From Tsuneonella litorea (GTDB lineage: Bacteria; Pseudomonadota; Alphaproteobacteria; Sphingomonadales; Sphingomonadaceae): 64,000 nt of DNA. The stretch is from assembly GCF_025154015.1 (NCBI RefSeq), contig NZ_JAOAMV010000003.1, positions 1 to 64,000 of the forward strand. Reading direction: 5' to 3'. The position numbers were made by a program, and so were the translations under genes. Shown here in pieces: positions 331 through 19,544 of the stretch. Numbering within the stretch: position 1 is the stretch's first letter; each line of letters starts with the position of its first letter. The notes under the pieces are model-generated. The model worked only from the letters and a program-made list of their open reading frames with translations. It searched no databases and was not told the origin of the DNA.

Positions 331-687
331 ATGAAAAGCAAACGCAGTGTCCGCTTCGAGTTGAACATGCACGCGGCCTGTCGCGTACCCGCCACCCCCA
401 TGTCCGCCATCATTCTGAATCTTTCCGTCGACGGGTGCCGCGGGCGCTCGAGGTGTTTTTCGCTAAGCCGCGGTGCGACGATCATCATGAAGCTCGCATC
501 GGGCGACGAAATGGCCGGCTAGGTTGTTTGGGCCGATCGGGAGGAGTTCGGAGTCCAGTTTTTTGAGCCGATGCCGACCGACACGGTCGCGCGTCTCAGC
601 GCGGAACAGCCTGACAGAGGCTCGTTGCCGGATCATCGGGACCATATCCCCGTACCCGACTTCGAAGTGAAGCTGGCGCCGGATTAA
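331..687 (+). pseudogene. PilZ-domain protein gene interrupted by an in-frame amber codon
   Basis: PilZ proteins bind cyclic di-GMP or act as its degenerate relatives. The frame opens at ATG 331 (Met-Lys-Ser-Lys-Arg) and shows the family pattern: an early basic stretch, the NLSVDGC segment matching the usual (D)LSxxGC motif, and a Gly that normally leads into a G-x-V-x-W strand. Exactly at the x position (520-522) stands TAG. After it the same frame continues with VVWADREEFGVQFFEPM, which is the expected PilZ end (G-V-x-F), and runs to TAA at 685-687. The break is a single codon, so the gene is recently inactivated, truncated at about 63 residues, or carries a sequencing error. Its 3' end overlaps the convergent gene by a few bases. 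The N-terminal c-di-GMP-binding RxxxR is not clearly recognisable. Confidence 0.72.
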
Positions 688-1868
688 TCGATCTTTGTGC
701 GGTACGACAGTGTGAAGGACGTGGGGGTACCACTTGGGGCCGCGGCAAATGCACCCTTCAATCGAACTCGCATCCGCGTGACGTTTCCGTCGAGCTGCTG
801 AGCATCGGCTACCGGCGTGTACGTCCACGTCGCACCGTTGTCGCTCGAAAACTCCAGGTCGTCGGTCGTGCTCGATAGCGACGTGAAAGTGTACGTAAGC
901 GATGACGGAGGCGTTCCGTTGGTGAATTGAACCGGACCGCTCGATCCCCCGCCAATGTCAGCGACCGACAATTTGGTCGACGCAGGAACCGCGAGGATCA
1001 CGTCGACTGTGTTAGAATCGGGCGCTCCGGTTCCGCTGTTCTGGACGGTCGTCGAGTGTGTAACCACTGCACCCGGGATATCCAGCGGATTGACGGTGCC
1101 GCGAATCGGGTCGTTGAGCGGCGCACTCGTCAGCGTCGCGCTGATCGTCGGCGATCCGCCCGAATTGATTGGGACTGCGACGATGCCCCAGGCATCCTTC
1201 TGGGACAGGTTCCAGGTGAGCGTGTTAGTTGCAGCGCCCGCCTTGGTGCTGCCTGCGCCGATAAGACCTGCGCCGCCCGTTCCGTTCGCGATCGACCAGA
1301 GCGCGGTCTGTCCGGGATCGGCAGTCGCGTAGGTCGTGTCGCCATTGGTGACGATACCGCCAAAAATAAGTTGCGTCGCCGAGCCGGCAAGGGAAATCGA
1401 TGGCACAAAGTGATCGCCGAGAAGTGTCGCTGGGGTTCCCCAAGGAGCCGATTGGTTGACGCCAAAAAAGCTTGTGACACCGATCACCGATGGGCGCGAT
1501 TTGGTGAGGGTGACAACAACGTTGTTCGTGCCCATCGCCGGTGCGACCCTACCCCAGACTTCGATGGCGCCGTCGCCGCCCTTGCCGCGCGTAAGGGCGA
1601 TCAGTGTCAGCGGCTGCCCGGCATATGTCACCGTCGAAACGTCGGCGTCCTTCTCCGCGATCGCCACCGTGACTAGGATCAGGCGACTGGACGACGAACC
1701 CACCGTATGGGTGAAGGTGACTGTGCTGCTGTTGACTGAATTGGTCGATACTGCGTCGACGGTCGGCTGGGCCAGAACAGCTCCAGAATGAAGAGCCACG
1801 AGCGCCAGCAGGAGGGCCCCCACGGCTCTGCAGAACATCTTCAGTCTCGGGGTGAACATCGTGGTCAT
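684..1868 (-). CDS. Secreted DUF11-like repeat protein, 394 aa
   Basis: The product begins with a signal peptide (basic start, hydrophobic core of about 15 residues, cleavage near Val-Leu-Ala-Gln at residue 34). The mature part is Thr/Ser/Gly/Val-rich beta-sandwich sequence. Roughly the first 230 residues form one domain (an SSSRLILVTVAI strand followed by a VxYxGxPLT segment) of a kind often seen in extracellular proteins. The C-terminal third resembles a DUF11/TIGR01451 repeat ('PGAVVTHSTTVQNSGTGAPD'). The start ATG overlaps the stop of the upstream 1683-aa gene as ATGA, so the two are probably translationally coupled. It is the last gene of the DUF11 run. The exact function is unknown; a surface or periplasmic structural role is inferred from its composition and neighbours. 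Confidence 0.75.
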   Translation of the reverse strand: MTTMFTPRLKMFCRAVGALLLALVALHSGAVLAQPTVDAVSTNSVNSSTVTFTHTVGSSSSRLILVTVAIAEKDADVSTVTYAGQPLTLIALTRGKGGDGAIEVWGRVAPAMGTNNVVVTLTKSRPSVIGVTSFFGVNQSAPWGTPATLLGDHFVPSISLAGSATQLIFGGIVTNGDTTYATADPGQTALWSIANGTGGAGLIGAGSTKAGAATNTLTWNLSQKDAWGIVAVPINSGGSPTISATLTSAPLNDPIRGTVNPLDIPGAVVTHSTTVQNSGTGAPDSNTVDVILAVPASTKLSVADIGGGSSGPVQFTNGTPPSSLTYTFTSLSSTTDDLEFSSDNGATWTYTPVADAQQLDGNVTRMRVRLKGAFAAAPSGTPTSFTLSYRTKID

Positions 1869-4800
1869 CTCCGCCTCCCCAAGCCAAGAAACGACAGGCT
1901 TTCGGAATCGAACTTCATGCGGATGCTGGCGAAGAGGCCCTTGTCGGTCTCACGAGCCTCAGAGAAGTCGCGGTCACGAAAGCCCGTCATGTTGTATCCG
2001 AGCGTCACTAGTGTGTTGTCCGCCGGCGTGAAGCCGATCTGCGGTCCGATTGCGAAACTGGTTGTTCCGTCGCTAACGTTCGCCCGGATCGTTGCCGAGC
2101 CGCCGATCTCGAAGCGCTCGCCGATACCAAGGCGGGCATCGAGCCCGCCGAGCAGTGTCGTACCCGCAAGGTCGAAATCCTCGATCCGGTCGAGATTGCG
2201 ACGAAGGCCCAGGAACATTCCGGGCTCCGAACGCTGGTAAAGTTGTCCGTTCCGTACGGTGTAGGGCGACCAATTGGTCGAAAGGCTCGCCAGCAGCCGC
2301 TGCGACTTTGCATCGCCACCGACGGTCACCGCGTTCGATCCAACAGGACCTGGCTCACCAAGCACGGCACCTGCGACCCGGTCGCTGCGGTACTGGAGCT
2401 TGCCAAGGAAAGAAATTTCTGATCCCGACGGCCGATATGCCAACGCGAGGGCGGCATCCATGATCTCGCTGGTCGCCGCGTCGTTGGCGGTCGCCTTGGT
2501 CCAAGTCCCGCCGCCGCCAACCACGACGCCATCCGCCAGTTGCCGGATCACGCTCGCGGTCACGCCCTTGCGGTCGACGCTCTCCCCGTCACGATATTCG
2601 CCCCGGACGGTGGCCGACCATGCATCGTGCCGCCACGAGCCGCCAAGGGTAATGGCGGTGAAGTCTTCGAACAAAGACTGTTCCGAAACGATATGGCCGC
2701 CGCTGGAAAGCGGATGGTCAGGATTGACGAGTTCGCCGCGGTCGAAGCCGCCCAGTTCGCGATTGCCGTCGATGGTCGCATCGATCGTCAGGCTCGGCGC
2801 AACGGGCAGGGTCTGGGCAAGACCGAAGGCAGCGTAAGTGCGCTGGCCGGACTCGTCGATCTGGCGACCCACAGAAGTTAATGCCCGGCTGCCCTGCCAC
2901 GGGGTCAGTTCGAACCCGGCATTGAACGTGCGCGCTTCAACGGTGTCGCCCCTGGCGATCTCATAGGTGCCGACCGCGCGGGCCCAATCGGTCACTGCAT
3001 AGCTCGCGCGTAGCCTATGGCGTTCGGGGAGGTCTGCCGATTCCGTCCCATCGATCGCGACGCTGCTGGTCGCGCTCAGTTCGAGCTTGTTGCCGAGCAG
3101 TCGCTGCGAAACGCCAACCTCGACGACGGTCGAATCTCGGTTGGTGCCATCGGAGAGCTTGTCGGCGAATTTGGCGATGCCGAGCCGAGCCTCGGTCTGG
3201 CCAGTCCGATAAGTGCCCGTAGCCTGGACCGCCTGGCGACTGGAGGAATCGACGACGCTGTCATCGTACCATGCACTGAACACGTATGCGATCTTCTGGC
3301 TCCCTTCGAGCCGCGCGTCGAAGCCGAACTTGCGACGGCCGACCTCCGCACCCGAAACTTGTCCGATCCCGAAATCGGCATCGACCGAGCGGACATAGGC
3401 TATGAGGTCGACTGCGCCCGTCCGATGTTCAGCTTCGACGAGCCAGGCTGTCGCCTCCCTACCGTCCTTGCGGCTGACCGCGAGTTCGGCGCGGATCTCA
3501 GTATTGTCGCCGATGCGTGCCCGCAGATCGACCGCCGCCAACTCGGTGCGGAATTCTTGACCCTTGTCGGTCAGGACCGTCGCACCGAAACGCAGGACGT
3601 CTTCGCCGAAGGTGTAATCGATCCGCGCACCAGCGTTCCACGCCGAGGAGGCTGAGGCTTCGAACACCTCGTAATCGATAACGATGAACTGCGGATTCAG
3701 ATCGAAATCGCGGCTGAGAACTGGCTGCTTGAAACTGATTGTGCCCGCAAGAAGGTCGATATCGTAGTCGAGGAACCGGACCAACTCGCGGCGGGACACC
3801 ACGATTTCAGATCGGAAACGGTCGCGCACCTCGATCGAGACGACTTCGGAATTTGCAAGGATATCGCGGTCGCGCAGCTGATACGGGCCGGAAAGGCCAT
3901 TGCCCTGGATCTCGTCGTGGCGGTGGCGGCTGGCAACCTTCGCGGCGAACGCCTGACCATGGACCTTGCCGACACGCCCCTCGACCTTCGCGCCCGTGGC
4001 GGTGCGCCGATACTGAGCGAGGACCGTCTGGTCGAAGCCGGTCAGGAAGTCACCGTAGAGCGCGTAGAACGCCTTCGTTTCGATCCGGACATAGAGCTTT
4101 TCGCGGCCGGCGGCATCGAAGCGGCGGTCCGATCCGTCGGCGAACACGGTGTAGTATGCTTTGGGATCGATCGCGCCGAGAAGGCGCTGGTCGTCCTTCT
4201 GCTTCGCGCTGTCGTATGCCAGCGTCATGAGAAACCGACCGAGCACGCTGCCCTTGGCATATAGCGCGACCCGGGCGTCGTCACCGAAGTCGCTGTCGAA
4301 CTCGCCGGTCCGCTCCATGTTGTCCGCGACGCTCTTCGCGCCGATCGATCCTTCGGCAAGGCCGATGATGGTCCAGTCGAGGTCTCCCGGCACCACCCAA
4401 CTTTCGAGCTCTTGGCGGCGCTGGACACCGCCGTCGGCGAACTGGAAGTCGAGTCGTAGTGGTCCGCTCACCATCTTCGGCGCGAGCTCGATCAGGGCAA
4501 CGCCCTTGTCGCCCTCGATCGTCCAGTTGGCCGATGCAGAGCCGCGTCCGGTGAGCTGGCCGAGCTGCAACTGGTCGAGCATGGCCGCACTCTGGAATGG
4601 CTCGCTTACGGCGAAGGTCCCGGTCACCCCGGCGCGGACCGGACGGCCGCGGCGGTCGGTGAACTTCACTGCCACCACCGGACGGCTCTTGCCGTCGGCG
4701 ACGAGATGCGAACGAGTCTTTACCAACTCCGCTCTCCACGGCGCCGACACGAATTGCACATCGCGTACGAGCTCGGTGGCGACCGTTCCGTCGGGGTTGC

Positions 4801-6916
4801 GCACGATCGCGCGCAACACGGTCTGGCGCTGGGTCAGCGGGATCGCGCGCCAGGCGGAGACGGCATAGGTGCGGTTGGCCGATACCTTGGTGCCGTCTAG
4901 CGCAAGAGCGCCAACCGCCTTGCCGCCGGCAAAGAGCTCGATCTTCTGGCCGGCCCTGTGCCGAATGACCACCCGAACGGCAGGCGAACGGGGATTGTGA
5001 TCGACATTGGGAAACAGGAACTCGGTCGGGCCATCACCCAGCGCCATCCAGTCGGTCTCCGCACCAGATGCCGCCCGTGAATTAACAGTATAGGTGGGGG
5101 CAGGGGCAGCGGCATCTGTGGGACCTCCATCCGCCGCAGGAACCTCCGCGGCTTGCGGGGAGCCGGGCACGACCGCATGGAAATCGGCGACCGCAAGGCT
5201 GCCGCCCTGGCCGCTCACGAAGCGCGAGATGGCGCTCCCGGCGCTGCGGGTGGAGCGGTGACAGTCGACGAAATGCCCATCTCCCGGAAGCGTCTGAGTC
5301 TGGGCCTGCACGACATGGGTGCCAGGCACCACGCCGTCGAAGTGATAACGTCCTTCGCGGTCCGTAATCGCGAAGCTCCCGTCTTCGAGCATGACCCGCA
5401 CACCGGGAATGCCGACCACGGGACCTTCCTGCCGGCAATCACCGAGCATCACCCGGCCGGTGATAGTCATACGTGAAATCAATTGGTTATGTTCGATTAC
5501 TACCGAAGATTCTACGTCGGTACGGGTGCCGGATGCATCGATAACGGTGGCGTGGTTGACGGCCTGTCCGGGGGCAGCGTCTTCGCGGACGACCATTGCG
5601 TAGGTCACGCGCACCGAACCGTTCGGCGGTATGCTCCCAAGCGCTGCCGTGAAGCCGTGACCGTCGATCGACGCCGAAACGACGCTGGGCTTCGCCTGGC
5701 CGTTGATCCGCAACGATTCGGGGCGAAGTCTGAGCGCGCGCGGCGCACTGTCCGCCAGCACGATATCCGTCTTCGCGCGGGTTGGATCGGGGTTGCGAAC
5801 CGTGACGCTATAGAACACCGCGTCGCCCGGTTCCGCGCGTGGGCGGGAGGCGGACTTCGTGACAGCGAGGGGAACCTTGGGTCGGTCTACCGGAATGTCG
5901 ATTCGTACGGGCGTGATCGAGGTCAGCGCGAAGCTCCCCCCATAGGACGCGTCGTTGATCGTCAATGCCGATCCGTCGGAATGACGAAAGTTCGCGAAGT
6001 TCGACGACGAAACCGTTGAAGGTGCGGAATACGGGGAGGGCGGGGCGACGATAATCCGATAGTTGCCTAGCGACGCATTGGGGAATCGGTACTCACCTGG
6101 TCCCATGGGGTGGGACACGCCCGCGCCGTCGACAATCGGCGCACCCGTGACGACACTGGAGGGCCAGGGGGTTACGCCATCGTCGGCGAATACGGTCGCA
6201 GGCGCACCTGATTGCGCGTCCACGAGCGAGACTCGCGCGCCCGAAACCGGGGTGCCGTCGTCGCTGTCGAAAACAAGCCCGTACGGGTCTGCCAGGATGG
6301 CGACGAGTGTGGTGGCCACCGGCGGAAGACCCGTTCCACCCCCAACCGCGACTTCAACCAATTCCTCAGGTTCGACACTCAACCTGCAGTCATTTCTAGA
6401 TTTGCTAACTGTCGATGCTAACGTATTGATTGACCCTGTAAAAATTCCCGTATCTAAACCTGTTTCGAGGATAGCGATGACTTCTCTGTCACCACGCGCG
6501 CCGGTGATGGTCACGCTCACGCTATCGGCAATTGAGGGATTGAGATTTGCGGCGGGCGCCCAGAAGCGAAGAATTAGCACTTCACCGATCGCGAGAGTGC
6601 TCGTTCGAGCCGAAGCGACGTTGATAGCGCCTCCGGATTGGCCGGCAAACACGAACAACGGATTGCCGCCGCATTGGGAGGGTGAGATCGAAAGCGGGGC
6701 TGCGTTATCGACCGGATGATAGGTCTCGATCTCGGCCGGTTGCGGATCGACATCGATATCGATCGTATTGGAAAGTGCCGATCTCGCAGCACCTTCCTGC
6801 GACCAGCTCACACGTGCCGTGTTGGAAATCGTCTGTGCATTCACAGGACCCGCAAACAGCAACAGCGCCCAGATGAGCGCTGCTGCCATTTCGAGGATGA
6901 AGGCCCACGGACGCAT
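1865..6916 (-). CDS. Giant DUF11/SdrD-like protein with a C-terminal outer-membrane barrel-like region, 1683 aa
   Basis: Signal peptide at residues 1-27 (cleavage near Val-Asn-Ala-Gln). Residues about 28-330 are Ig-like beta repeats. About 345-475 is a clear DUF11/TIGR01451 repeat (AVTKSASRPRAEPGDAVFY through TYAMVV). About 480-550 is a SpaA/carboxypeptidase-regulatory-like fold with the hallmark GVRVMLEDG and DREGRYHFDGVVPG. About 600-840 are further Ig-like segments (a DRRGRPVRAGV motif). From about 845 to the end alternating polar/hydrophobic strands with many Tyr, Arg and Asp suggest an outer-membrane beta barrel. The sequence ends Gly-Arg-Arg-Arg rather than in the usual terminal Phe, so the barrel is inferred, not proven. 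Related proteins are usually annotated only as DUF11-domain proteins. It sits 34 bp downstream of the 375-aa DUF11 gene and overlaps the next gene by 4 nt. A surface scaffold or secretion role is inference. Confidence 0.75.
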   Translation of the reverse strand: MRPWAFILEMAAALIWALLLFAGPVNAQTISNTARVSWSQEGAARSALSNTIDIDVDPQPAEIETYHPVDNAAPLSISPSQCGGNPLFVFAGQSGGAINVASARTSTLAIGEVLILRFWAPAANLNPSIADSVSVTITGARGDREVIAILETGLDTGIFTGSINTLASTVSKSRNDCRLSVEPEELVEVAVGGGTGLPPVATTLVAILADPYGLVFDSDDGTPVSGARVSLVDAQSGAPATVFADDGVTPWPSSVVTGAPIVDGAGVSHPMGPGEYRFPNASLGNYRIIVAPPSPYSAPSTVSSSNFANFRHSDGSALTINDASYGGSFALTSITPVRIDIPVDRPKVPLAVTKSASRPRAEPGDAVFYSVTVRNPDPTRAKTDIVLADSAPRALRLRPESLRINGQAKPSVVSASIDGHGFTAALGSIPPNGSVRVTYAMVVREDAAPGQAVNHATVIDASGTRTDVESSVVIEHNQLISRMTITGRVMLGDCRQEGPVVGIPGVRVMLEDGSFAITDREGRYHFDGVVPGTHVVQAQTQTLPGDGHFVDCHRSTRSAGSAISRFVSGQGGSLAVADFHAVVPGSPQAAEVPAADGGPTDAAAPAPTYTVNSRAASGAETDWMALGDGPTEFLFPNVDHNPRSPAVRVVIRHRAGQKIELFAGGKAVGALALDGTKVSANRTYAVSAWRAIPLTQRQTVLRAIVRNPDGTVATELVRDVQFVSAPWRAELVKTRSHLVADGKSRPVVAVKFTDRRGRPVRAGVTGTFAVSEPFQSAAMLDQLQLGQLTGRGSASANWTIEGDKGVALIELAPKMVSGPLRLDFQFADGGVQRRQELESWVVPGDLDWTIIGLAEGSIGAKSVADNMERTGEFDSDFGDDARVALYAKGSVLGRFLMTLAYDSAKQKDDQRLLGAIDPKAYYTVFADGSDRRFDAAGREKLYVRIETKAFYALYGDFLTGFDQTVLAQYRRTATGAKVEGRVGKVHGQAFAAKVASRHRHDEIQGNGLSGPYQLRDRDILANSEVVSIEVRDRFRSEIVVSRRELVRFLDYDIDLLAGTISFKQPVLSRDFDLNPQFIVIDYEVFEASASSAWNAGARIDYTFGEDVLRFGATVLTDKGQEFRTELAAVDLRARIGDNTEIRAELAVSRKDGREATAWLVEAEHRTGAVDLIAYVRSVDADFGIGQVSGAEVGRRKFGFDARLEGSQKIAYVFSAWYDDSVVDSSSRQAVQATGTYRTGQTEARLGIAKFADKLSDGTNRDSTVVEVGVSQRLLGNKLELSATSSVAIDGTESADLPERHRLRASYAVTDWARAVGTYEIARGDTVEARTFNAGFELTPWQGSRALTSVGRQIDESGQRTYAAFGLAQTLPVAPSLTIDATIDGNRELGGFDRGELVNPDHPLSSGGHIVSEQSLFEDFTAITLGGSWRHDAWSATVRGEYRDGESVDRKGVTASVIRQLADGVVVGGGGTWTKATANDAATSEIMDAALALAYRPSGSEISFLGKLQYRSDRVAGAVLGEPGPVGSNAVTVGGDAKSQRLLASLSTNWSPYTVRNGQLYQRSEPGMFLGLRRNLDRIEDFDLAGTTLLGGLDARLGIGERFEIGGSATIRANVSDGTTSFAIGPQIGFTPADNTLVTLGYNMTGFRDRDFSEARETDKGLFASIRMKFDSESLSFLGLGRRR

Positions 6917-6950
6917 GCGATTACTCAGTCACCGATCTCCCAGCCGTTGA

Positions 6951-8078
6951 TCAGTTGATCGTCGCTTGGAATCGAAGAGTTCTCGTTTCCGTCGCCGCAA
7001 TCGAAGCGAAGGTGTTGCTCACCGTCGTAGTCCCCGCGTTGTAGTTCGCGGCGTCCGATCCGGCCGATCCGCCGCTCGACGTACAAGTGTCGGGAGCGGA
7101 GAACGCACCGTCGAGGTAGACACTTCCCGAAACGAAGGTCATTTCGGTCGGCACCACATCGCTGAGCGCTACATCGGCCGCGGTGGCGGCGCCCGACGCG
7201 TTCGACACGACGATGCAGTACTCAACCACAGCTCCGGGGATGGAGCGTGGGTTAGTGCTACCAACAGGATCGCTGACCACACGGCTATACTTGTTGACCG
7301 ATAGGAGAGCACCCGCGACTTGGTAGTCGCTGCGAGCCGCGTGCTGGCCGTTATAGGCCGTATCGCCGCTGGGGGCGTAGGCCGCGTCGGCGAAGACCGT
7401 TTCCATCGTCGTCTGGCCGTTTGCCGTACCAGGCGGGGTCTGCGAAATGGCCGAACCTCCTGAACCGGCGACTGTACCGCCGATTTGGCTGGCGCCGGAT
7501 GCTGCTGTCGCCGTCAGGACTACCGTCGCGATGCTGCCGTTCGTGGGCAGCGCTGCCGGCGGACCCGCGCTGAGGACCATGTCGGCCAGGACATAAACAG
7601 TCGCGGTGTCACCCGAGGCGATTCCAGCGAGTGCGCCTGCTTGGGTATCGTCCGTCTGCCAACCCGGCGTGCCGTTCGTTTCGACGTAGACGCGCACGTT
7701 GGCGCCGTCGAAGCTGTCCGACCCGCTGAACTGCGCGCTGCCGCCCGACTGGTTCGTCGCGGCAAGCAGGAAGTCGAGCGTGGCGTTCGAGTTGTTGGTG
7801 ACCGTGAAAGTCGTGACCGCATCGGTCTGACCAGGCGAAACGCTTACGGCCGATGCGTCGGTCGTCGCCACAGTCACGTTGACCTTGCGGTCGACCTTGA
7901 ACGTGTCCGTAGCCGAAACCTGGGTCTGGCTGACCCCGCCGACCTTGTAGTCGACCTGGACGGTATTGGTAATGTCGCTGCCAGCGGCAGTCCCTACGGG
8001 GGCCGCTTGAACGACGGATGGTGCTACGGCCAGTGAGATGCCACTAACCGCAGCGAGCCATTTGCTCCTGAGCATCAT
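6951..8078 (-). CDS. Secreted DUF11-repeat protein, 375 aa
   Basis: A typical signal peptide (cleavage near Val-Val-Gln-Ala-Ala, about residue 25) is followed by an N-terminal beta domain opening with DITNTVQVDYKVGGVSQ. This 'xNTxxVxYxxGGxxQ' opening is shared by all members of this cluster. The C-terminal part (about residues 250-375) is a DUF11/TIGR01451 repeat with the hallmarks NPRSIPGAVVEYCIVVSNASG and a closing TLRFQATIN strand. It lies between the 160-aa and the 1683-aa genes on the same strand, with short gaps of 75 and 34 bp, which suggests one transcript. It could be a surface-layer or adhesin-type component; the sequence shows no catalytic motif. Confidence 0.78.
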   Translation of the reverse strand: MMLRSKWLAAVSGISLAVAPSVVQAAPVGTAAGSDITNTVQVDYKVGGVSQTQVSATDTFKVDRKVNVTVATTDASAVSVSPGQTDAVTTFTVTNNSNATLDFLLAATNQSGGSAQFSGSDSFDGANVRVYVETNGTPGWQTDDTQAGALAGIASGDTATVYVLADMVLSAGPPAALPTNGSIATVVLTATAASGASQIGGTVAGSGGSAISQTPPGTANGQTTMETVFADAAYAPSGDTAYNGQHAARSDYQVAGALLSVNKYSRVVSDPVGSTNPRSIPGAVVEYCIVVSNASGAATAADVALSDVVPTEMTFVSGSVYLDGAFSAPDTCTSSGGSAGSDAANYNAGTTTVSNTFASIAATETRTLRFQATIN

Positions 8079-8153
8079 AGTCGTGATCCATCTGCATGCT
8101 CGCTCTCGATCCCCCGCCCGCGAGCTGTGGGCGGCATTTATCTCTTCCGCGCA

Positions 8154-8636
8154 TCATCGAACGACCGCGAAATAAGTCAGCGAACCCTGCGCTCCCGGTG
8201 CAATCCTCGCGAGGGTCCAGCGAACGTGAGTCACGTCTGCCAGGGTCGCAGGCCGCGATCCGGAGTCGCCATTGGCGACTTCCAGCGAAGCCAGATGCCC
8301 GTAAGTCTTTCCTCCATCGACCGAGACATCGAAGGATCCGTCTTCGGCCAGCATCACCGCGCTCGGCAGTGGATTGGTGACTACGAAATCTTCGGCCGGC
8401 TCGGCGCCGGAATTGATGTAACGCGTCGAGAACGCGAGTCGGTCGCCGGGAACGACCCGGGTCGGCTCCTGCAGTTCCTCGTGCTTCTCGTCCCCTTCGC
8501 CGACGACCCGCACGACCTTGACATCGCCCTTGAGTTCAACCGACTGCGGCTGCGCAAGCAGGGGAGTGCCGGGAAAGGCCACAAGAATCATCGAAGCAGC
8601 TGCAAGAAGATGCCGTTTCACGCTGATTTTCCTCAC
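8154..8636 (-). CDS. Small secreted DUF11-like protein, 160 aa
   Basis: The product has a signal peptide ending near Leu-Leu-Ala-Gln (about residue 28) and then a single beta-sandwich domain with the DUF11 logic: TRVVPGDRLAFSTRYINSGA (entry strand), EDFVVTNPLPSAV (the 'xNPxP' turn) and a closing SLTYFAVVR strand. The chosen start is the GTG at 8634-8636, which overlaps the TGA of the remnant upstream frame (GTGA). This arrangement indicates that its translation was once coupled to the now broken upstream gene, so expression may have dropped after that gene was damaged. No enzymatic motif is visible. Confidence 0.72.
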   Translation of the reverse strand: MRKISVKRHLLAAASMILVAFPGTPLLAQPQSVELKGDVKVVRVVGEGDEKHEELQEPTRVVPGDRLAFSTRYINSGAEPAEDFVVTNPLPSAVMLAEDGSFDVSVDGGKTYGHLASLEVANGDSGSRPATLADVTHVRWTLARIAPGAQGSLTYFAVVR

Positions 8637-9485
8637 TTATCGATCGTTACTTTGAACGAGACGGTGTAGCTGGATCCGGCTGCCGCATTGCCTACGACAA
8701 CCGAAATGCCAGCAGCGCTCAGCTCACCGGCATCCATATCTGCGGCGTCGGTCAGTGACACGCCATCGAGCTCGATGCTGCCGGGCAGGTACGTCGTGGA
8801 CGACGACAGTATTCGCAGGCGCAGGTGCGTCCGGGGTCGATGCGGTCGTGGGCCTATCCGGCGGTCAGGCGATCGCGACGGGTGCGGTCATGGCGTCGCT
8901 CGCCAGCGTCACCCTCGTGAAATCGGCAAGCGTTGAGCCGGTGCCGGTCGCAGCTTGCGCGGTCAGCTGCAACTGGCTGTTCTGACCGTCGGTTGCACTC
9001 GCAGGCACGAGCGCGACGACGAGGATCGCGATCGAGGCGTCGGCGTCGAGCGACGGCGTGGCCGCGCCCCCGGGGATCACTGTGTCGATCCCGTCGTCGT
9101 AGACGCCGTTGGCATTCGTATCGATTGCGATCTTGTCGACTATGAGGTCGAAATCGTTCCCCGCCACTGCCGGCTCTGCCACGAGATTAAAGGTCTCAGG
9201 TCCGTTGCCGGTATTGCTCAGGAGGAAGCGGAGAACCACGTCGCCGCTAGAGGTGATCGGTCCACCGTCCTGAGAGGCCAGGGCCGCGTCGAGAGTCTCA
9301 TTGACTGTGATCGAAACGATGTTTGAGTCGACCGTCTGAGTCACGCCATTGTGCGTGAAACTTGCGGTGGCAGTATTTTGGATCACCGAACCGGCCGGCA
9401 CGCCTTCCGCGCGGACGGAAACCGCGCACAGTGCGGCCGCACTTGCGGCCGACAGCAAAAGACAGTGAACAGGGCAGAACTTCAT
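8633..9485 (-). pseudogene. First gene of the DUF11 run, broken by a stop codon and a frameshift
   Basis: From ATG 9485 the frame encodes a signal peptide (cleavage near Val-Arg-Ala-Glu) and a beta domain with the shared QNTATASFTHNGVTQTVDSN opening and a DTNANGVYDDGIDT calcium-loop-like segment. It reaches a TGA at 8865-8867 after about 206 residues. The same frame continues with plausible coding sequence (PTTASTPDAPAPANTVVVHD) to about 8793. There the family pattern jumps to another frame: TTYLPGSIELDGVSLTDA down to a stop at 8633-8635. That tail is a textbook end of a DUF11 repeat and its stop overlaps the next start as GTGA. A stop plus a small deletion/frameshift therefore split one gene. 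A shortened 206-aa secreted product may still be made. Sequencing error is the alternative. Confidence 0.68.
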
Positions 9486-9779
9486 CCGGCCCAAACTAAA
9501 CGGTATAGGTTAACGAATCTCACCCAGTGGCTAACAGAGGCCTAGGGATCTGTATCTATTAGGGAATCGGTCAAAATCACGAATTCGGCGAGGGGGGGGC
9601 AGCGTTTCGTGGAAGCGGATGGTAAGGCTTCAGGACGCTCCCAAATTAGACGCAACCCCGACAAGACAAACTATCTCGGTTAACGGCAAGCCGTCCGGGC
9701 ATTAGATTTTGAGTGACATGCCAAGAACTTCGCAAGGGCGGAGTTGCGGATCGAGGGGATCAGCGGCGGTCTGCGCCAT
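9486..9779. other. Upstream region of the DUF11 run
   Basis: No gene is recognisable between the DUF11 run and the integrase remnant. The stretch should carry the promoter of the minus-strand run, but I cannot point to a convincing -35/-10 pair. A run of eight G residues near 9592-9599 is notable. The left part probably also contains degraded sequence from the integrase 3' end. Confidence 0.35.
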
Positions 9780-10298
9780 CGGCCGTGTACAGTTATGTCC
9801 AGACGCATGTCGCGTAGCGCCTTCGTCAGCGTAATGTCATGTCGGACAGCGTCTTTCCGCGCTTCGTGCCACAGAAGACGAGGTCGCAGTTCTGTCTCTG
9901 TGCACCTTCATGCGCTCGAACAGCGCCAGCGCCGGCACGGGAAGGGGAACGACGTGCTCGCGTCCCGCCTTCATTTTACAGCTCGCCTTGTGCTCAGTAC
10001 GGAGCAACTTGGCGGCTTCGCGAAACGTGGGAATACCGGCCGCCTTGCGCCGCTCAGCAACGGGATCGATGCCCGATTGGATCTGCTCTCTGACAGACTG
10101 GGCTCTTTCGCGAGCCAGGTTCAGGGGAACCTTGCTGGCGCTACCCAAGGCGATATCGCGTCGCCGACCGTCTTTCTGGCCCCGAACCATCCAACTTTTT
10201 ACGCCGCCCTTGCCGACTAGCAGGAAAAGTCCGTCGCCGTCGCCTTATCGCCTCGGCCTACTCGCCGCCTTGACAGTGGTGACTGTCAGACTGCCCAT
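9780..10298 (-). pseudogene. Remnant of a P4-type tyrosine integrase (DUF4102 N-terminus)
   Basis: Reading leftward from ATG 10298, three frames together rebuild the arm-binding N-terminus of P4-family integrases: MGSLTVTTVKAASRPRR, then after a frameshift DGDGLFLLVGKGGVKSW and GRRRDIALGSASKVPL, and FREAAKLLRTEHKAS. Immediately after this the sequence jumps to a piece from the catalytic domain (KAGREHVVPL and ALFERMKVHRD), so the core-binding domain and the first catalytic Arg are deleted. Further frameshifts follow (DLVFCGTKRGKTLSDM, then LTKALRDMRLDITVHG), and the sequence diverges at the position of the H-x-x-R box. The gene is dead. It reads away from, and lies 133 bp past the 3' end of, tRNA-Ser, the classical position for an integrase of a tRNA-inserted island. 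Confidence 0.85.
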
Positions 10299-10431
10299 TA
10301 GTCAGTCTCCCACACTTTCTCCCGCGCCATCTCGCAGCTAGCGGCGAACGGCCAGAAACGGAGGGACACGGATAAACGGCTAAGTACTGCTACGTTAGCC
10401 ACCTCAACGGGTCGGTTAAGAAATAGGGAAG

Positions 10432-10521
10432 TGGCGGACAGGGTGGGATTCGAACCCACGGAGAGCTTGCACCCTCGCTGGTTTTCAAGACCAGTGCCTT
10501 AAACCGCTCGGCCACCTGTCC
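10432..10521 (-). tRNA. tRNA-Ser (anticodon UGA)
   Basis: On the minus strand the acceptor 5' strand GGACAGG (10515-10521) pairs with CCTGTCC (10436-10442), followed by a G discriminator and an encoded CCA (10432-10434). The anticodon arm has the loop CTTGAAA with anticodon TGA, the long variable arm expected of class II tRNAs is present, and the T arm has GGTTCGAATCC. Length is 90 nt. The 3' end faces the integrase remnant, so it is the likely attachment site of the former island. I found no second copy of its 3' end in the window. Confidence 0.97.
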
Positions 10522-14495: not shown

Positions 14496-15454
14496 CCCTC
14501 ATCGGTCACGACGCCGCCTGGCGCGAATGGCGGGACGGGCTCCGCGGAGAGCGGATGCATCATGCCTGGCTTCTCGCGGGCAAGAAGGGGCTCGGCAAGA
14601 TGCGCTTTGCGCTTGCCGCGGCGCGCGAACTGGTTGCCGAACCCGGCATCCCCCAGCCCGAGGGCCAGCATCCCGACATCCTCGTTCTCACCAACCTGCC
14701 CAAGGACGAAAAGGAAGAGAAGAAGCGCGAGGACGGCAAGGAATACGAACTCGCACGGAACATCAAGATCGCGCAGGTCCGCGAAATGCAGCGCCGGCTG
14801 ACCACCCGTCCCACGCTCGGCAGCAAGCGGGCGGTCATCATCGACCCGGCCGACGACATGGAAACCGGTTCGTCGAACGCGCTGCTCAAGAGCCTCGAGG
14901 AGCCGCCTGCAGGCACCTTCTTCCTGCTCGTCGCCCATCGCCCCGCCCGGCTGCTGCCGACGATACGGTCACGCTGCCGGCTGTTGCGCTTTCCCACGCT
15001 CGAAGATGCCGCAATCGCTCGCATCCTCGGCGAGCAGGCGCCGGAAGCCGATGCCGGGACCCGCGCCGCGGCGGTCGCGGCTGCGGCGGGCTCGCCCGGA
15101 GCAGCGCTCGAATTCGTCGCCCAGGATCTGGCGCCGGTCGATGCGCTGATGCGGCGGATCGTCGAGACCGGTGATCCCGACTTCACGCTGCGCGGCAAGC
15201 TGGCGGCAGAGATCGGCGCGCGGCCCGAACGCGCGCGGATCGCCGCAGTGCTGGACCTGGCCCGCGCGCGGCTGGCACAGATGGCGGCCGCGGCCCCGCG
15301 CGGCGGCCTGCCCGCGATTGTCGATGCCCATGCCGACCTCGTGCGTCTTTCCGCGCAGGCGCCGACACACAACTTCGATCCCGGCTTGCTGGTGATGCAG
15401 ATCGGCGGCTTGCTCGCGTCGACAGCGGCGGCTAGCAGCCACGCCGATGCCTGA
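14492..15454 (+). CDS. holB: DNA polymerase III subunit delta'
   Basis: Subunit of the clamp loader that places the beta clamp on DNA. The 320-aa product has the AAA+ P-loop-like AGKKGLGKM, a sensor/SRC motif TIRSRCRLLRF, and the helix segment SSNALLKSLEEPPAGTFFLL typical of HolB. The GTG at 14492 overlapping the tmk stop is the natural start; an earlier GTG at 14456 is possible but lies inside tmk. Between residues 60 and 85 there is a lysine/glutamate-rich insertion (KDEKEEKKREDGKEYE) in place of the zinc-binding cysteines of E. coli delta', a variant common in alphaproteobacteria. Confidence 0.93.
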   Translation: MTLIGHDAAWREWRDGLRGERMHHAWLLAGKKGLGKMRFALAAARELVAEPGIPQPEGQHPDILVLTNLPKDEKEEKKREDGKEYELARNIKIAQVREMQRRLTTRPTLGSKRAVIIDPADDMETGSSNALLKSLEEPPAGTFFLLVAHRPARLLPTIRSRCRLLRFPTLEDAAIARILGEQAPEADAGTRAAAVAAAAGSPGAALEFVAQDLAPVDALMRRIVETGDPDFTLRGKLAAEIGARPERARIAAVLDLARARLAQMAAAAPRGGLPAIVDAHADLVRLSAQAPTHNFDPGLLVMQIGGLLASTAAASSHADA

Positions 15455-17003
15455 ACCCTATTATCTTACCACCGCGATCAGCTATCCCAACGGTCGCCCG
15501 CATATCGGCCACGCCTACGAAGCGATTGCCGCCGACGTTATCGCGCGCGTGAAGAAGGCCCAAGGGTTCGACGTGCGGCTCGTCACCGGGACCGACGAGC
15601 ACGGCATGAAGATGGCCAAGACGGCGCGCGAGGCGGGCCGCGACACGCTCGAATTCGCAAATGAAATGTCCGGGTATTTCCGTGATATGTGCGCTGCTCT
15701 TCATATCGATTACAGCGCGTTCCGGCGCACGACCGAAGAGCAGCACTTTGCGGCCAGTCAGGCGATCTGGAAGGCGATGGAATCCGCCGGCGACCTCTAC
15801 CTCGATCGTTACGAGGGCTGGTATTCGGTTCGCGACGAAGCTTTCTACGGTGAAGACGAGATTGTCGAAGACGAGGGGGGTGCCAGGCTCTCGCCGCAGG
15901 GCACCCCGGTTGAATGGCAGGTCGAGGAAAGCTGGTTCTTCCGGCTGTCGAAATACCGTGATTACCTCATTGAGCTGAACGAGAGACCGGGCTTTCTCGA
16001 GCCGGAAAGTCGCCGGAACGAGGTGCTGGCCTTCCTCAATGGCAACGACCTGCGCGACCTGTCGGTCAGCCGGACGAGCTTCGATTGGGGCGTGCCGGTG
16101 CCCGGCAGTCCCGGTCACGTCATGTACGTATGGGTCGATGCGCTCACCACCTATCTCACCGGTATCGGCTTTCCGGACCGGGAAGGGGAGTTCGACCGCT
16201 TCTGGCCCGCCGACCTCCACCTCATCGGCAAGGATATCGTTCGATTCCATGCGGTCTACTGGCCGGCATTCCTCAAGAGCGCGGGTCTGCCCGCGCCCAA
16301 GGCGATCTTCGGGCACGGCTTCCTGCTCCACCGCGGCGAGAAGATGTCAAAATCGACCGGCAACGTTGTCGATCCGCTCGAACTCGCGGAACGATACGGG
16401 GTCGACCAGTTGCGCTATTTCCTGCTGGCAGAAGTGCCGTTCGGCAAGGACGGCAGCTTTTCCGCGGAGGCGATCGTCACGCGATGCAATGCCGAGCTCG
16501 CCAACAGCTTCGGCAACCTCGCGCAGCGCGTCTTGTCGATGATTTTCAAGAACTTGGACGGCGAACTGCGCAACGATCTGCCCCTGAACGAAGCCGATGA
16601 ATTGCTGGCAAAGGCGGTCGGCACCGAAATCGACACGATGCGCCAGCGGTTCGAAAACTTGGCTTTCAGCGAGGGTATCGAGGCGTGGATGCGCGCGGTC
16701 TTCGCGTGCAACGCCTATGTCGACGACCAGGCCCCGTGGACGCTCCGCAAGACCGATCCCGAGCGGATGGCGGCCGTCCTGATGACCCTGGTTCGGCAGG
16801 TCCGCGATCTGGCGATCGCGATCCGGCCGGTCGTGCCGTCGAGCATCGACCGCCTGCTCGATCAGATCGGAATCGCCGCCGATGCCCGCGGTTTCGCCGC
16901 CCTGGATGACAAGGACTGGATCGCGCAGTTGGGCGCGTTCCGCCTGTCGCAGCCGGTGGGCGTGTTCCCGCGCCTCGAGATGCCGTCCGAGGAGGCCGCG
17001 TGA
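15447..17003 (+). CDS. metG: Methionyl-tRNA synthetase
   Basis: Charges tRNA-Met. The 518-aa product has the class I signature HIGHAYEA (about residue 20) and KMSKSTGN (about 307), plus the alpha-helical anticodon-binding domain after about 380. It lacks the four-cysteine zinc knuckle and the C-terminal dimerisation domain of the E. coli enzyme, matching the short MetG form seen in many bacteria. The start overlaps the holB end by 8 nt, and the stop overlaps the tatD start. Confidence 0.96.
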   Translation: MPEPYYLTTAISYPNGRPHIGHAYEAIAADVIARVKKAQGFDVRLVTGTDEHGMKMAKTAREAGRDTLEFANEMSGYFRDMCAALHIDYSAFRRTTEEQHFAASQAIWKAMESAGDLYLDRYEGWYSVRDEAFYGEDEIVEDEGGARLSPQGTPVEWQVEESWFFRLSKYRDYLIELNERPGFLEPESRRNEVLAFLNGNDLRDLSVSRTSFDWGVPVPGSPGHVMYVWVDALTTYLTGIGFPDREGEFDRFWPADLHLIGKDIVRFHAVYWPAFLKSAGLPAPKAIFGHGFLLHRGEKMSKSTGNVVDPLELAERYGVDQLRYFLLAEVPFGKDGSFSAEAIVTRCNAELANSFGNLAQRVLSMIFKNLDGELRNDLPLNEADELLAKAVGTEIDTMRQRFENLAFSEGIEAWMRAVFACNAYVDDQAPWTLRKTDPERMAAVLMTLVRQVRDLAIAIRPVVPSSIDRLLDQIGIAADARGFAALDDKDWIAQLGAFRLSQPVGVFPRLEMPSEEAA

Positions 17004-17779
17004 GGCTGATCGACAGCCATTGTCACCTCGAATACGAGGGCGTGGCCGAATACAGGCAGGGCGTGCTTTCCCGCGCGCGCGATGCCGGGGTGACCGGGAT
17101 GCTCAACATCTCGACCCGCCGCAGCGAATGGGAAACCGTGGTGGGCACGGCCGAGCGCGAGCCTGATGTCTGGGCCAGCGTGGGAATCCATCCGCACGAA
17201 GCCGACCAGCACGCAGACCTCGGCCGCGACGCGCTGCTGGCGGCAACGTCACACCCCAAGGTCATCGGGATCGGCGAAAGCGGGCTCGACTACTATTACG
17301 ACAAGTCCGATCGCGCGGTGCAGCGCGACCTGTTCCGGATGCACATCGGCGTCGCGCGCGAAACCGGCCTGCCGGTCATCATCCACACCCGCGATGCCGA
17401 GGGCGACACCGCGGCGATCCTTGCCGAGGAGATGCAGCAGGGCGCTTTCCCGGCCCTGATCCATTGCTTTACCGCATCTCGCGATTTCGCGAAGTCCGTC
17501 CTCGACCTGGGCTTGACGATCTCCCTTTCGGGTATCGTCACGTTCAAGAACGCGAAGGAACTGCAGGAAATCGCTGCAGACCTTCCTTCGGACCGGCTGC
17601 TGGTAGAAACCGACAGCCCGTTTCTCGCTCCGGTGCCGCATCGCGGCCGCCCGTGCGAGCCGGCCTTCGTGCGCGACACAGCGGCGTTCGTCGCAAACCT
17701 GCGCGCGGTGCCACTGGAAGACCTGGCGGAAACGACGACCGCCAACTTCTTCAGTCTTTTCACGAAAGCCGCGGCGTGA
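17000..17779 (+). CDS. tatD: TatD-family metal-dependent DNase
   Basis: TatD proteins are 3'-5' exonucleases involved in DNA repair and turnover. The 259-aa product shows the metal-binding pattern in order: DSHCHLE near the N-terminus, GESGLDYYYDKSD with the conserved Glu, a His in VIIHTRDAE, a His in IHCFTASRD and the final LVETDSPFLAPVPHRGR with the catalytic Asp. The gene starts in the metG stop (GTGAGG region) and its own stop overlaps the next start as GTGA, so the set is one operon. Confidence 0.93.
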   Translation: MRLIDSHCHLEYEGVAEYRQGVLSRARDAGVTGMLNISTRRSEWETVVGTAEREPDVWASVGIHPHEADQHADLGRDALLAATSHPKVIGIGESGLDYYYDKSDRAVQRDLFRMHIGVARETGLPVIIHTRDAEGDTAAILAEEMQQGAFPALIHCFTASRDFAKSVLDLGLTISLSGIVTFKNAKELQEIAADLPSDRLLVETDSPFLAPVPHRGRPCEPAFVRDTAAFVANLRAVPLEDLAETTTANFFSLFTKAAA

Positions 17780-18543
17780 AGCTCATCATGCTCGGCTCGG
17801 GCACCTCAACCGGGGTGCCGCGGATCGGCGAAGACTGGGGCGACTGCGACCCCGCCGAACCGCGCAACCGCCGTACGCGGGTATCGATCGTGGTCGAGAA
17901 CGCCGAAGGCAAGCGCCTGCTGGTCGACACCTCGACCGACCTGCGCCAGCAACTGCTCGCAAACGCCATTGAAAAGGTCGACGGCGTGTTCTGGACGCAC
18001 GACCACGCCGATCACTGCCACGGGATCGATGACCTGCGGGTCATGCGTTATGACCGCTCGGGTCCGTTGCCAGGGTTTGCCGCCGACGAGACTGCCCGGC
18101 GCCTGCGCGCGCGCTTCAGCTATGTTTTCGCCGGCGAACACGGGTATCCGACGATCTGCGAGCTCAACACGCTTGAACGCCTACGGATCTTTGCCGGATT
18201 TGGCGTCTCGCATTGCCAGATGCCGCACGGGCCGGCGCAATCGACGGCATTCCGTTTCGACGCGGACGGAAAATCAATCGGTTATGCGACAGACTTCAGC
18301 GAAATTACCGAGTCCATGGTGGCGCTCATGCGGAAGGTCGACCTGCTTGTGGTCGATTGCCTGCGCCGCAGACCGCATCCGACGCACGCGCATCTCGCCA
18401 TGGCACTCGAGTTCGCGAAGCGTTGCGGTGCGCGCCGCGCGGTCCTGACGCATCTCGACAAGTCGATGGATTACCGGACCCTGGCTGGCGAGGTGCCGGA
18501 CACGGTCGAGGTTGGATACGATGGGCTGGAGATCGCGTTATGA
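17776..18543 (+). CDS. PhnP-like metallo-beta-lactamase fold hydrolase
   Basis: The 255-aa product has the zinc site of the MBL fold, THDHADHCHGID, with further ligand His/Asp in DCLRRRPHPTHAH and near the end THLDKSMDY. It starts MLGSGTSTGVPRIG after a few residues, the usual opening of the PhnP/YycJ-like subgroup (phosphodiesterases on cyclic phosphates or nucleic acid ends). I chose GTG 17776, which overlaps the tatD stop; the longer open frame upstream is a shadow of tatD. The tatD-MBL pairing is frequent in alphaproteobacteria. The precise substrate cannot be told from sequence. Confidence 0.88.
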   Translation: MKLIMLGSGTSTGVPRIGEDWGDCDPAEPRNRRTRVSIVVENAEGKRLLVDTSTDLRQQLLANAIEKVDGVFWTHDHADHCHGIDDLRVMRYDRSGPLPGFAADETARRLRARFSYVFAGEHGYPTICELNTLERLRIFAGFGVSHCQMPHGPAQSTAFRFDADGKSIGYATDFSEITESMVALMRKVDLLVVDCLRRRPHPTHAHLAMALEFAKRCGARRAVLTHLDKSMDYRTLAGEVPDTVEVGYDGLEIAL

Positions 18544-18710
18544 ACGAAATCAGCACCGTCCAGATCGTCGCCTTGCTCGGTTGGCTGCTGCTCGCCGGCA
18601 GCGCGTTCGCCGGTTATCGCCTGGGGTGGAAGGAAAGCATCCGGCTGGCGCTGCTATGGGCTGGCATATTCATCGCCGTGGGACTGGCGTTCTCGCTGGC
18701 GATGGGGTGA
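18540..18710 (+). CDS. Small two-helix membrane protein, 56 aa
   Basis: Starts with ATG 18540 overlapping the upstream stop (TTATGA). It encodes 56 residues with two hydrophobic segments (about 8-26 and 36-54) separated by a short charged loop (RLGWKESIR). No family is recognised. The overlap with the MBL hydrolase gene and the clean hydrophobicity pattern support a real gene. Nothing in it predicts a function. Confidence 0.65.
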   Translation: MNEISTVQIVALLGWLLLAGSAFAGYRLGWKESIRLALLWAGIFIAVGLAFSLAMG

Positions 18711-18731
18711 GAGGCCCAGGATGTATTTAAC

Positions 18732-18745
18732 ATAATATATATTAT
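18732..18745. promoter_or_regulatory. AT-only 14-bp palindrome before mazG
   Basis: ATAATATATATTAT is a perfect palindrome ten bases upstream of the mazG start, in an otherwise GC-rich operon. It could be the -10 region of an internal promoter or a regulator site. No ribosome binding site separates it clearly from mazG. Confidence 0.4.
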
Positions 18746-18754
18746 CATCGCACA

Positions 18755-19531
18755 ATGTCCGACCAGCTCGACCGCCTCCTCGCCATCATGGCCACTCTCC
18801 GCGACCCGGAAAACGGTTGCGACTGGGATCGCGCACAGCGGTTCGAGACGATCGTCCCGCACACGATCGAGGAAGCTTACGAAGTCGCCGACGCGGTCGC
18901 GCGCGGAGACGTCGATGACATCCGCGACGAACTCGGCGATCTGCTGTTCCAGGTCGTGTTTCAGGCCCGCATTGCCGAGGAAGCCGGATTGTTCGATTTC
19001 ACCGCCGTCGCGCGGTCGATCGCGGACAAGCTCGTGGCCCGCCATCCGCACATCTTCGCGGATGCCGAGGCGCCCGGCGCAGATCGCGACAAGCAGTGGG
19101 AAGCGCTCAAGGCTGCAGAGCGCGCCGACAAGGGCGCGACCAGCGCGCTCGACGGCGTTGCGGTCGCGCTTCCCGCGCTGATGCGCGCCGACAAGCTTCA
19201 GAAGCGCGCCGCGCGGGTCGGCTTCGACTGGCCCGACCGCGACGGGCCCGCCGACAAGCTCGCAGAGGAAATGCGCGAACTTGCCGAAGCCGATGAACCC
19301 GAGCGCTTCGAGGAAGCGGGCGACCTCCTGTTCGCCGCGGTCAATCTCGTGCGCGCCTACGGCATCGCGCCCGAGGACGCGCTGCGCGCTGCCAACGCCA
19401 AGTTCGAACGTCGTTTCCGGGCAATGGAAGAACGAGCCAAGGCTGATGCCGCCGACTTTGCCGGCCTCTCGCTCGACCGGCAGGAAGCCTATTGGCAGGC
19501 CGTCAAGCTATCGGAAAAAACGCTGGATTGA
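18755..19531 (+). CDS. mazG: Nucleoside triphosphate pyrophosphohydrolase MazG
   Basis: Hydrolyses (d)NTPs to monophosphate and pyrophosphate and helps clear damaged nucleotides and (p)ppGpp. The 258-aa length matches E. coli MazG. Two MazG domains are visible: the N-terminal one with CDWDRAQRFETIVPHTIEEAYEV and the metal-binding ELGDLLFQVVFQ, the C-terminal one with EEAGDLLFAAVNLVR. The gene converges with hflX, 13 bp between stops. Confidence 0.95.
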   Translation: MSDQLDRLLAIMATLRDPENGCDWDRAQRFETIVPHTIEEAYEVADAVARGDVDDIRDELGDLLFQVVFQARIAEEAGLFDFTAVARSIADKLVARHPHIFADAEAPGADRDKQWEALKAAERADKGATSALDGVAVALPALMRADKLQKRAARVGFDWPDRDGPADKLAEEMRELAEADEPERFEEAGDLLFAAVNLVRAYGIAPEDALRAANAKFERRFRAMEERAKADAADFAGLSLDRQEAYWQAVKLSEKTLD

Positions 19532-19544
19532 TCCGGCCGGACGT

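Follow-up and report, generated by a model that had tools for sequence, protein, structure and literature searches.

What kind of surface structure is encoded by five secreted proteins at the very beginning of a contig of Tsuneonella litorea (Alphaproteobacteria; Sphingomonadales)? The window analyzed here, that is, the whole stretch of 64,000 nucleotides at positions 1 to 64,000 of NZ_JAOAMV010000003.1 (assembly GCF_025154015.1), starts at the contig start, with the contig end near gene E, and carries in transcription order the genes A (broken), B, C, D and E (span 684-9494, minus strand; Table 1). A first-pass annotation of these genes proposed a barrel-anchored surface module in which a scaffold is accompanied by soluble secreted partners. 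Our analysis supports the barrel-anchored module with secreted partners and replaces the scaffold by a head-to-tail arrangement, because the opening of some of the proteins resembles the missing end of the C-terminal domain of their partners. We propose that the operon probably encodes a self-assembling surface fibre that is built on the donor-strand principle from split DUF11 domains, a family also known as CLIPPER.

The basic description of the run held. The coordinates of five minus-strand genes (394, 1683, 375 and 160 residues plus a broken fifth) were confirmed, the ends of D and E overlap by ATGA and those of the A remnant and B by GTGA, and a hydrophobic, signal-peptide-like stretch opens all five proteins, as judged by eye without a predictor. 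The DUF11 and carboxypeptidase-like domains assigned to D both exceed their Pfam cut-offs (DUF11, 31.7 bits against 24.6; CarboxypepD_reg, 39.6 against 32.3), and residues 350-467 of D belong to the DUF11 family (PF01345 / CLIPPER). C has a DUF11-type match (TIGR01451, 36.4 bits against a cut-off of 24), B a DUF11-like match of 20.2 bits, below the cut-off, and the Pfam/NCBIfam search returned nothing above cut-off for the A and E proteins of the window.

The N-T-(A/V) opening, initially attributed to all five proteins, turned out to be present in three of them, A, C and D, where it is confined to the mature N-termini; B and E do not have it, and it looks like the final two strands of a DUF11 domain; we therefore rejected it as a common repeat. 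The terminal DUF11-like domains of A, B, C and E stop ahead of those two strands and are thus incomplete, as judged from a model for A and from reading by eye for B, C and E. To represent the complete domain, we aligned 44 intact DUF11 domains that lie inside E proteins; the resulting model (129 positions) ends in ...TLTITGTVSASAGATITNTAEIIASS...DDYASASLTVQG, and the acceptor domains of A align to a median model position of 84 of 129, with 2 residues left over. The final strands of A, B, C and E, read by eye, are such as FDVTID, FRATIN, YPAIIR and FTLRVRYVVE, and the mature N-termini of A, C and D, hereafter donors, read GTLIENTATATY..VDSNTVTIRV, ITNTVTVNY..SDTFTVD and QTITNVAEARW..SNEVSIAV. 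As to the sorting signal of sortase-assembled pili, no tail was seen by eye after the terminal domain of the subunits. Adding a real donor to an A acceptor raised the model score by a median of 5.1-6.9 bits and by >3 bits in 76-77% of cases; with shuffled donors, such a gain was seen in 1-3%, and with a piece of B in 9%. For the C acceptor, gains of >3 bits were obtained in 41-52% of cases with real donors, 1-4% with shuffled donors and 8% with a piece of B. One domain appears to be split between neighboring subunits, as in donor-strand pili.

The conserved residues follow the same division. A solved DUF11 (CLIPPER) domain contains a Lys-Asp-Asn isopeptide bond, the system being Lys715, Asp748 and Asn806 in structure 9IFR, and some DUF11 domains lack the bond, according to the excerpted text of PMC12617251. 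In an intact domain, the bond joins the first-strand Lys to the Asn of the last-but-one strand, with the Asp assisting. The complete DUF11 domain inside D has Lys354, Asp389 and Asn454, each of them conserved in 134 of 139 aligned rows; among the other rows, one is truncated and four, from a single clade, have lost all three residues together. In the split domains, the acceptor Lys and Asp are kept in 128 and 127 of 131 rows for A, 134 and 133 of 134 for C, and 61 and 61 of 66 for E, and the donor Asn in 122 of 131 for A (6 Ser, 1 Thr, 2 gaps), 131 of 134 for C (3 gaps) and 132 of 139 for D (6 gaps, 1 Ser). B has Asn at the place of the Asp in 123 of 131 rows and no fixed Lys. The triad is present, then, in a single chain in D, split over the acceptors of A, C and E and the donors of A, C and D, and missing from B. 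With Lys and Asp on the acceptor side and Asn on the donor side, docking would make a covalent link between subunits, and an isopeptide bond may form there, by likeness to the intact DUF11 triad.

These features suggest the following assembly. Signal peptides would bring the subunits across the inner membrane. A, B, C and E, each ending in a DUF11-like domain that lacks the last two strands, would act as acceptors, and A, C and D, each beginning after the signal peptide with those two strands, as donors, such that each subunit would supply the strands missing from the acceptor of its neighbor. The A donor would enter E, the C donor A, and the D donor C; each docking would join Lys, Asp and Asn, and the joint may be welded. 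The predicted order is E at the tip (a variable N-terminal domain and no donor), followed by A, the C shaft and D at the base, where D, with its donor at the N-terminus and a giant barrel at the C-terminus, would be the anchor and the probable exit pore, the fibre either leaving through the barrel or being held by it. B, an acceptor without Lys and Asp, could hold donor strands in a reversible manner and so act as a periplasmic chaperone or as a chain cap. Docking, bond, order, the role of B and the surface fibre itself are inferred.

The gene set is a conserved operon, A-B-C-D, often followed by E. Of the 60 genomes in the near set, 13 have D, as do 109 of the 396 in the order (the genome of the window is counted in both); all matches in the order fall within one family, and two of ten congeners are positive. 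A profile scan of 80 genome loci mostly returned A-B-C-D, often with an E-like frame next. In a set of 139 non-redundant Sphingomonadales loci (149 minus 10 in which the last 600 residues of D are identical to those of another locus), A, B, C and D were all found in 130, with the broken A of the window counted, and all 130 keep the order and the single strand, which bears out the co-occurrence for which the first-pass annotation had called for a neighborhood search. Among the nine remaining loci, seven have <500 bases before D and one (L081) has 1.8 kilobases; L154 is the only locus without B despite 4.4 kilobases of sequence before D.

E is a variable front ahead of a constant terminal domain. 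Of the 139 loci, 87 contain an E-like frame that ends in this domain, behind D, upstream of A or on the opposite strand, and the ATGA overlap starts 36 of 56 candidate E frames. Among ten E proteins searched against Pfam, three have another domain in the N-terminal region (P-domain; beta-helix; laminin-G-like, below cut-off) and the other seven have DUF11-type matches only; internal DUF11 domains of E relatives reach 114 bits. A variable front joined to the same terminal domain resembles adhesin tips. At L087, about 15080-20730, three E-like genes stand in a row on the strand opposite D, all without Lys and Asp, and perhaps represent a cassette of alternative tips.

Similar gene sets occur outside the order. 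We inspected 20 regions around D relatives elsewhere in the phylum, 19 from other classes and one (L188) from the same class. In twelve of them (L171, L172, L174-L182, L185), D is accompanied by a B-like gene and by one or more A- or C-like genes whose products are similarly truncated at the end, and some also carry an E; the L173 and L183 regions run into contig ends. In L184 and L186-L190, D- or DUF11-type giants were seen without any small stand-alone gene resembling A, B or C, and D relatives therefore do not always come with the module. Plasmids of Acinetobacter haemolyticus, Pacificitalea manganoxidans and Synechococcus sp. NIES-970 encode, as read by eye, a donor-bearing protein and neighbors with truncated ends, with a B-like gene on the latter two that was not seen on that of Acinetobacter; a search of plasmid records for B gave three matches only. 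Rhodobacterales, Acinetobacter and cyanobacterial plasmids, as judged by eye, thus have similar sets, as do other classes of the phylum.

Several of these relatives differ in composition. In Synechococcus sp. NIES-970 (L114, 7236-13393), D is divided into two genes with a four-base overlap, one for a donor-bearing protein of 509 residues and one for a protein of 1543 residues that matches part of the barrel. Plasmid p4 of Acinetobacter haemolyticus (L112, 3441-16948) carries DUF11 genes, a D of 2008 residues, an OmpA-family gene and an E of 978 residues, and its small upstream DUF11 genes look fragmentary as annotated. The plasmid proteins H5, H7-H10, H15 and H16, from rhizobia and others, have mainly the barrel half of D in common and are annotated as TonB-dependent receptors (H8: OmpA family). 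Around H8 and L188-L190, DUF11- or SdrD-B-type giants are present, whereas small stand-alone genes like A, B or C were not seen.

Evidence on which donor pairs with which acceptor comes from loci that have lost the residues. For this survey, we considered loci with a readable A donor and an E, an E-like frame being counted only if its match ended <=25 residues from the frame end. The A donor has lost its Asn in seven loci, and E lacks Lys and Asp in all six of these with a readable E, which represent three lineages; the seventh, L162 (A donor Ser), has no counted E. Where the A donor keeps its Asn, E bears Lys and Asp in 74 of 77 loci (83 loci in total; Fisher 2.2e-7, kinship ignored). In two of the six, L087 and L088, E was at first not recognized; its genes there lie on the opposite strand and also lack both residues. 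In the seven Asn-lost loci, the acceptor of A itself keeps Lys in 7/7 and Asp in 6/7. On the D tree, the Asn of A changed three times; E changed along with it each time, and the acceptor of A in one of the three. Loss of the A-donor Asn together with the Lys and Asp of E, while those of A are mostly kept, argues for a bond between A and E. In L095, the D donor Asn and the C acceptor Asp are both lost. The link between the A donor and the E acceptor is therefore the best supported one, a link between C and D is suggested by this single case, and a link between A and C is reached by elimination.

The base of the proposed fibre is very probably an outer-membrane barrel, as its predicted strands and Foldseek matches indicate and as the first-pass annotation had anticipated for the C-terminal half of D. 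An AlphaFold2 model of residues 552-1683 (52 sequences; mean predicted local distance difference test (pLDDT) 76.5, predicted template-modeling score (pTM) 0.74) contains 41 strands of at least 8 residues between residues 818 and 1670, 31 of them behind residue 1090, as counted from the listed elements. Among the 50 Foldseek matches listed, outer-membrane barrels predominate (SlpA, Mtr, BtuB, LptD, FimD, SprA), with template-modeling (TM) scores of <=0.20 by query length; SlpA and TonB receptors are among the best-scoring of these, albeit with low TM values. A profile of the barrel searched against PDB sequences gave no outer-membrane protein at E-values up to 1, no usher or PapD-type chaperone family was matched in the five proteins (Pfam/NCBIfam, E-value up to 1; the genome was otherwise not searched), and no TonB plug or receptor family in D (Pfam, E-value up to 1). 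Homology of D to SprA or to ushers was considered and rejected for want of sequence support, SprA not being among the PDB matches at E-values up to 1. D is very probably an unusually large barrel with no known close fold, and a single barrel may comprise some 30-40 strands.

A number of observations weigh against the fibre model or narrow it. The local matches of the B, C and E acceptors to the complete-domain model stop earlier than that of A (medians 65, 63.5 and 55, with 48, 45 and 74 residues left), for which reason the end point of these three was judged by eye. Taken without an acceptor, the donors score a mere 2-4 bits, and 47-62% of them align beyond position 75 of the model; the case for them therefore rests on position, motif and context jointly. 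The three independent losses are too few to reach significance on the tree (sign test p 0.25). In L095, A has lost its acceptor Asp while C keeps its donor Asn, and E lacks Lys and Asp although the Asn of A is kept in the window (where A is broken), L018 (where E is truncated) and L155. Moreover, 45 loci keep the Asn of A with no E in the stretch covered, so that A may have another partner. A mutual-information analysis of donors against acceptors over 130 loci brought no pair to prominence, and the positive control inside D was only slightly above background. In the other classes, the D donor Asn is replaced in seven of 13 D N-termini (L174, L175, L177, L178, L179, L181, L185) and retained in six (L171, L172, L176, L180, L182, L183), while the acceptors read beside these D proteins retain Lys and Asp; a bond to D is accordingly not universal. 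We also modeled C linked to D, making use of 21 loci in which the two genes lie in one frame with only stops between them (16 used, 5 omitted). The chain comprised C and the D N-terminus, with stops read as Gly, and 54 further rows contained C or D alone. In this model (pLDDT 87, pTM 0.61), the N-terminal strands of C are placed at pLDDT 92-93 and the D donor at 54-71. This is compatible with a C donor in a C acceptor, through self-closure or as a stand-in for C-C polymerization, and lends no support to docking between C and D.

The linked model leads to an alternative, the self-closure of each subunit. A and C would complete the C-terminal domain with N-terminal strands of the same chain, which would make the proteins soluble monomers or separate adhesins attached to D. 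The high confidence given to the C strands and not to the D donor is what would be expected in that case, and a choice between monomer and polymer is reported for the donor-strand pilin FimA (PMC6615685). Self-closure cannot apply to all subunits, however, because the donor-bearing D does not end in a DUF11 acceptor, and B and E, which do have acceptors, lack a donor. For A, it is disfavored by the co-loss, which goes with E (both residues lacking in 6/6 readable cases) and not with the acceptor of A itself. We regard self-closure as unlikely. A further possibility concerns the bond alone: strands might be exchanged without a covalent link, the triad being kept for packing or as a relic, in a fibre like chaperone-usher pili. 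Genes persist in six loci that have lost the residues of the A-E joint (L087, L088, L089, L095, L106, L161), which a non-covalent joint would accommodate, as it would the replaced Asn in the D proteins of other classes and the bond-less DUF11 domains mentioned in the available part of PMC12617251. Against this stand the near-invariance of the triad within the order and the fact that, in all four substitution loci (one clade), the DUF11 domain of D lost its three residues together, as happened across A and E; an exchange without a bond seems doubtful.

The proteins might also form no fibre at all, with D serving as a barrel for uptake or efflux and the small DUF11 proteins forming a lid, an S-layer patch or an envelope spacer. 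The annotation of several plasmid relatives of the barrel half as TonB-dependent receptors and the low-scoring SlpA and TonB-receptor structure matches point in this direction, but D contains no TonB plug or receptor family at E-values up to 1 and the donor/acceptor grammar would be left unexplained, which makes this quite improbable. The donor-strand fibre is the reading that we prefer. For the broader claim, namely a class of self-welding Lys-Asn fibres with its own anchor machine that extends through several classes of Pseudomonadota into Cyanobacteria, with B guarding the donors in the periplasm, we see an even chance. Operon conservation, N-terminal donors, acceptors that end early, conservation of the triad and the co-loss of A and E are features of the sequences themselves.

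Table 1. Features of the fibre-like gene module and its surroundings in the window (all on the minus strand; assigned functions are putative)
Feature	Coordinates	Strand	Description
Gene A (broken)	8633..9494	-	N-terminal frame 8865-9494; C-terminal remnant out of frame, ending 8633
Donor segment of A	9300..9392	-	Asn40 of 209-residue frame
Gene B, 160 residues	8154..8636	-	One truncated DUF11-like domain (weak match; end by eye), without donor segment; Asn where Asp expected; putative chaperone or cap
Gene C, 375 residues	6951..8078	-	N-terminal donor segment, beta domain, C-terminal truncated DUF11 domain; putative shaft subunit
Donor segment of C	7890..7982	-	Residues 33-63, Asn38
Truncated acceptor domain of C	6954..7307	-	Residues 258-375, Lys263 and Asp307, end ...FQATIN
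Gene D, 1683 residues	1865..6916	-	Donor segment, beta domains, complete DUF11, CarboxypepD_reg, predicted outer-membrane barrel; putative fibre anchor/exit pore
Donor segment of D, mature N-terminus	6746..6835	-	Residues 28-57, Asn32
Complete DUF11 domain inside D	5516..5869	-	Residues 350-467, Lys354, Asp389, Asn454
Predicted barrel strands of D	1907..4465	-	Model residues 267-1119 = protein residues 818-1670
Gene E, 394 residues	684..1868	-	Signal peptide, variable N-terminal region, C-terminal truncated DUF11-type domain (about 687-1151); putative tip subunit; Lys and Asp missing in window copy
tRNA-Ser(TGA) adjoining module	10432..10521	-	
Degraded integrase-like remnant between tRNA gene and A	9740..10300	-	By eye

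In the genome of the window, the E-A end of the module looks decayed, and B, C and D are intact. The broken A keeps its donor segment, its middle, including the part with the acceptor Lys and Asp, being unrecognizable; with A broken and E devoid of Lys and Asp, this strain is probably without a normal tip. The module is preceded (9494-10521) by the tRNA-Ser(TGA) gene and the degraded remnant at 9740..10300, which looks integrase-like by eye. A tRNA on the same strand ends about 90-630 bases before the A frame in 10 of 57 loci scanned (L034, L041, L046, L047, L066, L070, L078, L083, L092, L109), and the tRNAs differ. This placement looks like tRNA-targeted integration; the final 16-40 bases of the tRNA-Ser gene do not recur as an exact copy in the window, so that the other end of any integrated element is not seen.

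If the proposed assembly is correct, it would represent a Gram-negative covalent fibre without the need for a sortase and, in effect, a natural chain of split tag/catcher units in which the N-terminus of D supplies the last donor strand. It would give a role to many orphan DUF11 proteins that are annotated merely as domain-containing and account for the association of giant DUF11 barrel proteins with small DUF11 neighbors. The predicted subunit order could be checked by single point mutants, and the donor-acceptor pairs could serve as natural tag/catcher pairs in protein engineering.

A donor-strand fibre is a known kind of structure, whereas the split CLIPPER domain, the covalent variant in Gram-negative bacteria and the donor-bearing giant barrel were not found in the literature searched. 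That search, for DUF11 combined with donor strand, isopeptide, pilus, outer membrane or Sphingomonas fimbriae, covered open-licence PubMed Central papers (bioRxiv was not covered), and none of the matches listed describes the system. A close parallel is with chaperone-usher pili (Fim, Pap, archaic Csu/CupE), which likewise combine an N-terminal donor strand with an incomplete Ig-like C-terminal domain, an acceptor-only tip subunit with an extra domain, and an outer-membrane barrel encoded together with the subunits. The donor/acceptor grammar and the co-loss fit donor-strand exchange of this type; docking was not seen in the linked model. The present module differs in its DUF11 fold, in a split that covers two strands including the bond residue, in the donor carried by D and in the much larger predicted barrel; the five proteins include no match to a PapD-type chaperone or an usher family at E-values up to 1, and FimD matches D in structure only at TM 0.14-0.16. 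SprA of the type 9 secretion system is a very large outer-membrane barrel, and its complexes 8gl6 and 8gl8 are among the Foldseek matches listed (TM 0.15-0.17 by query length); unlike a homolog, it matches D weakly in fold and was not among the PDB sequence matches at E-values up to 1.

DUF11/CLIPPER fibrillar adhesins (PMC12617251, excerpted text) and DUF11 grappling hooks (PMC13319060) share the domain family and the surface role, and the Lys-Asp-Asn triad is common to the former and the family described here. In those adhesins, the domains stand in tandem on one long chain, whereas here the terminal domains end early on separate subunits. Archaeal threads (Saci_0406) are also donor-strand filaments for which an isopeptide bond between subunits has been proposed, but they consist of another protein, the bond joins Asn to the alpha-amino group of Asp between subunits n and n+2, and no barrel is described in the excerpted text of PMC9715654. 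Finally, TasA/TapA fibres resemble the proposed fibre in combining strand exchange with a small dedicated helper; going by the available part of PMC10151520, they are Gram-positive and of a different fold, and TapA of Bacillus donates a strand, whereas B would accept one.

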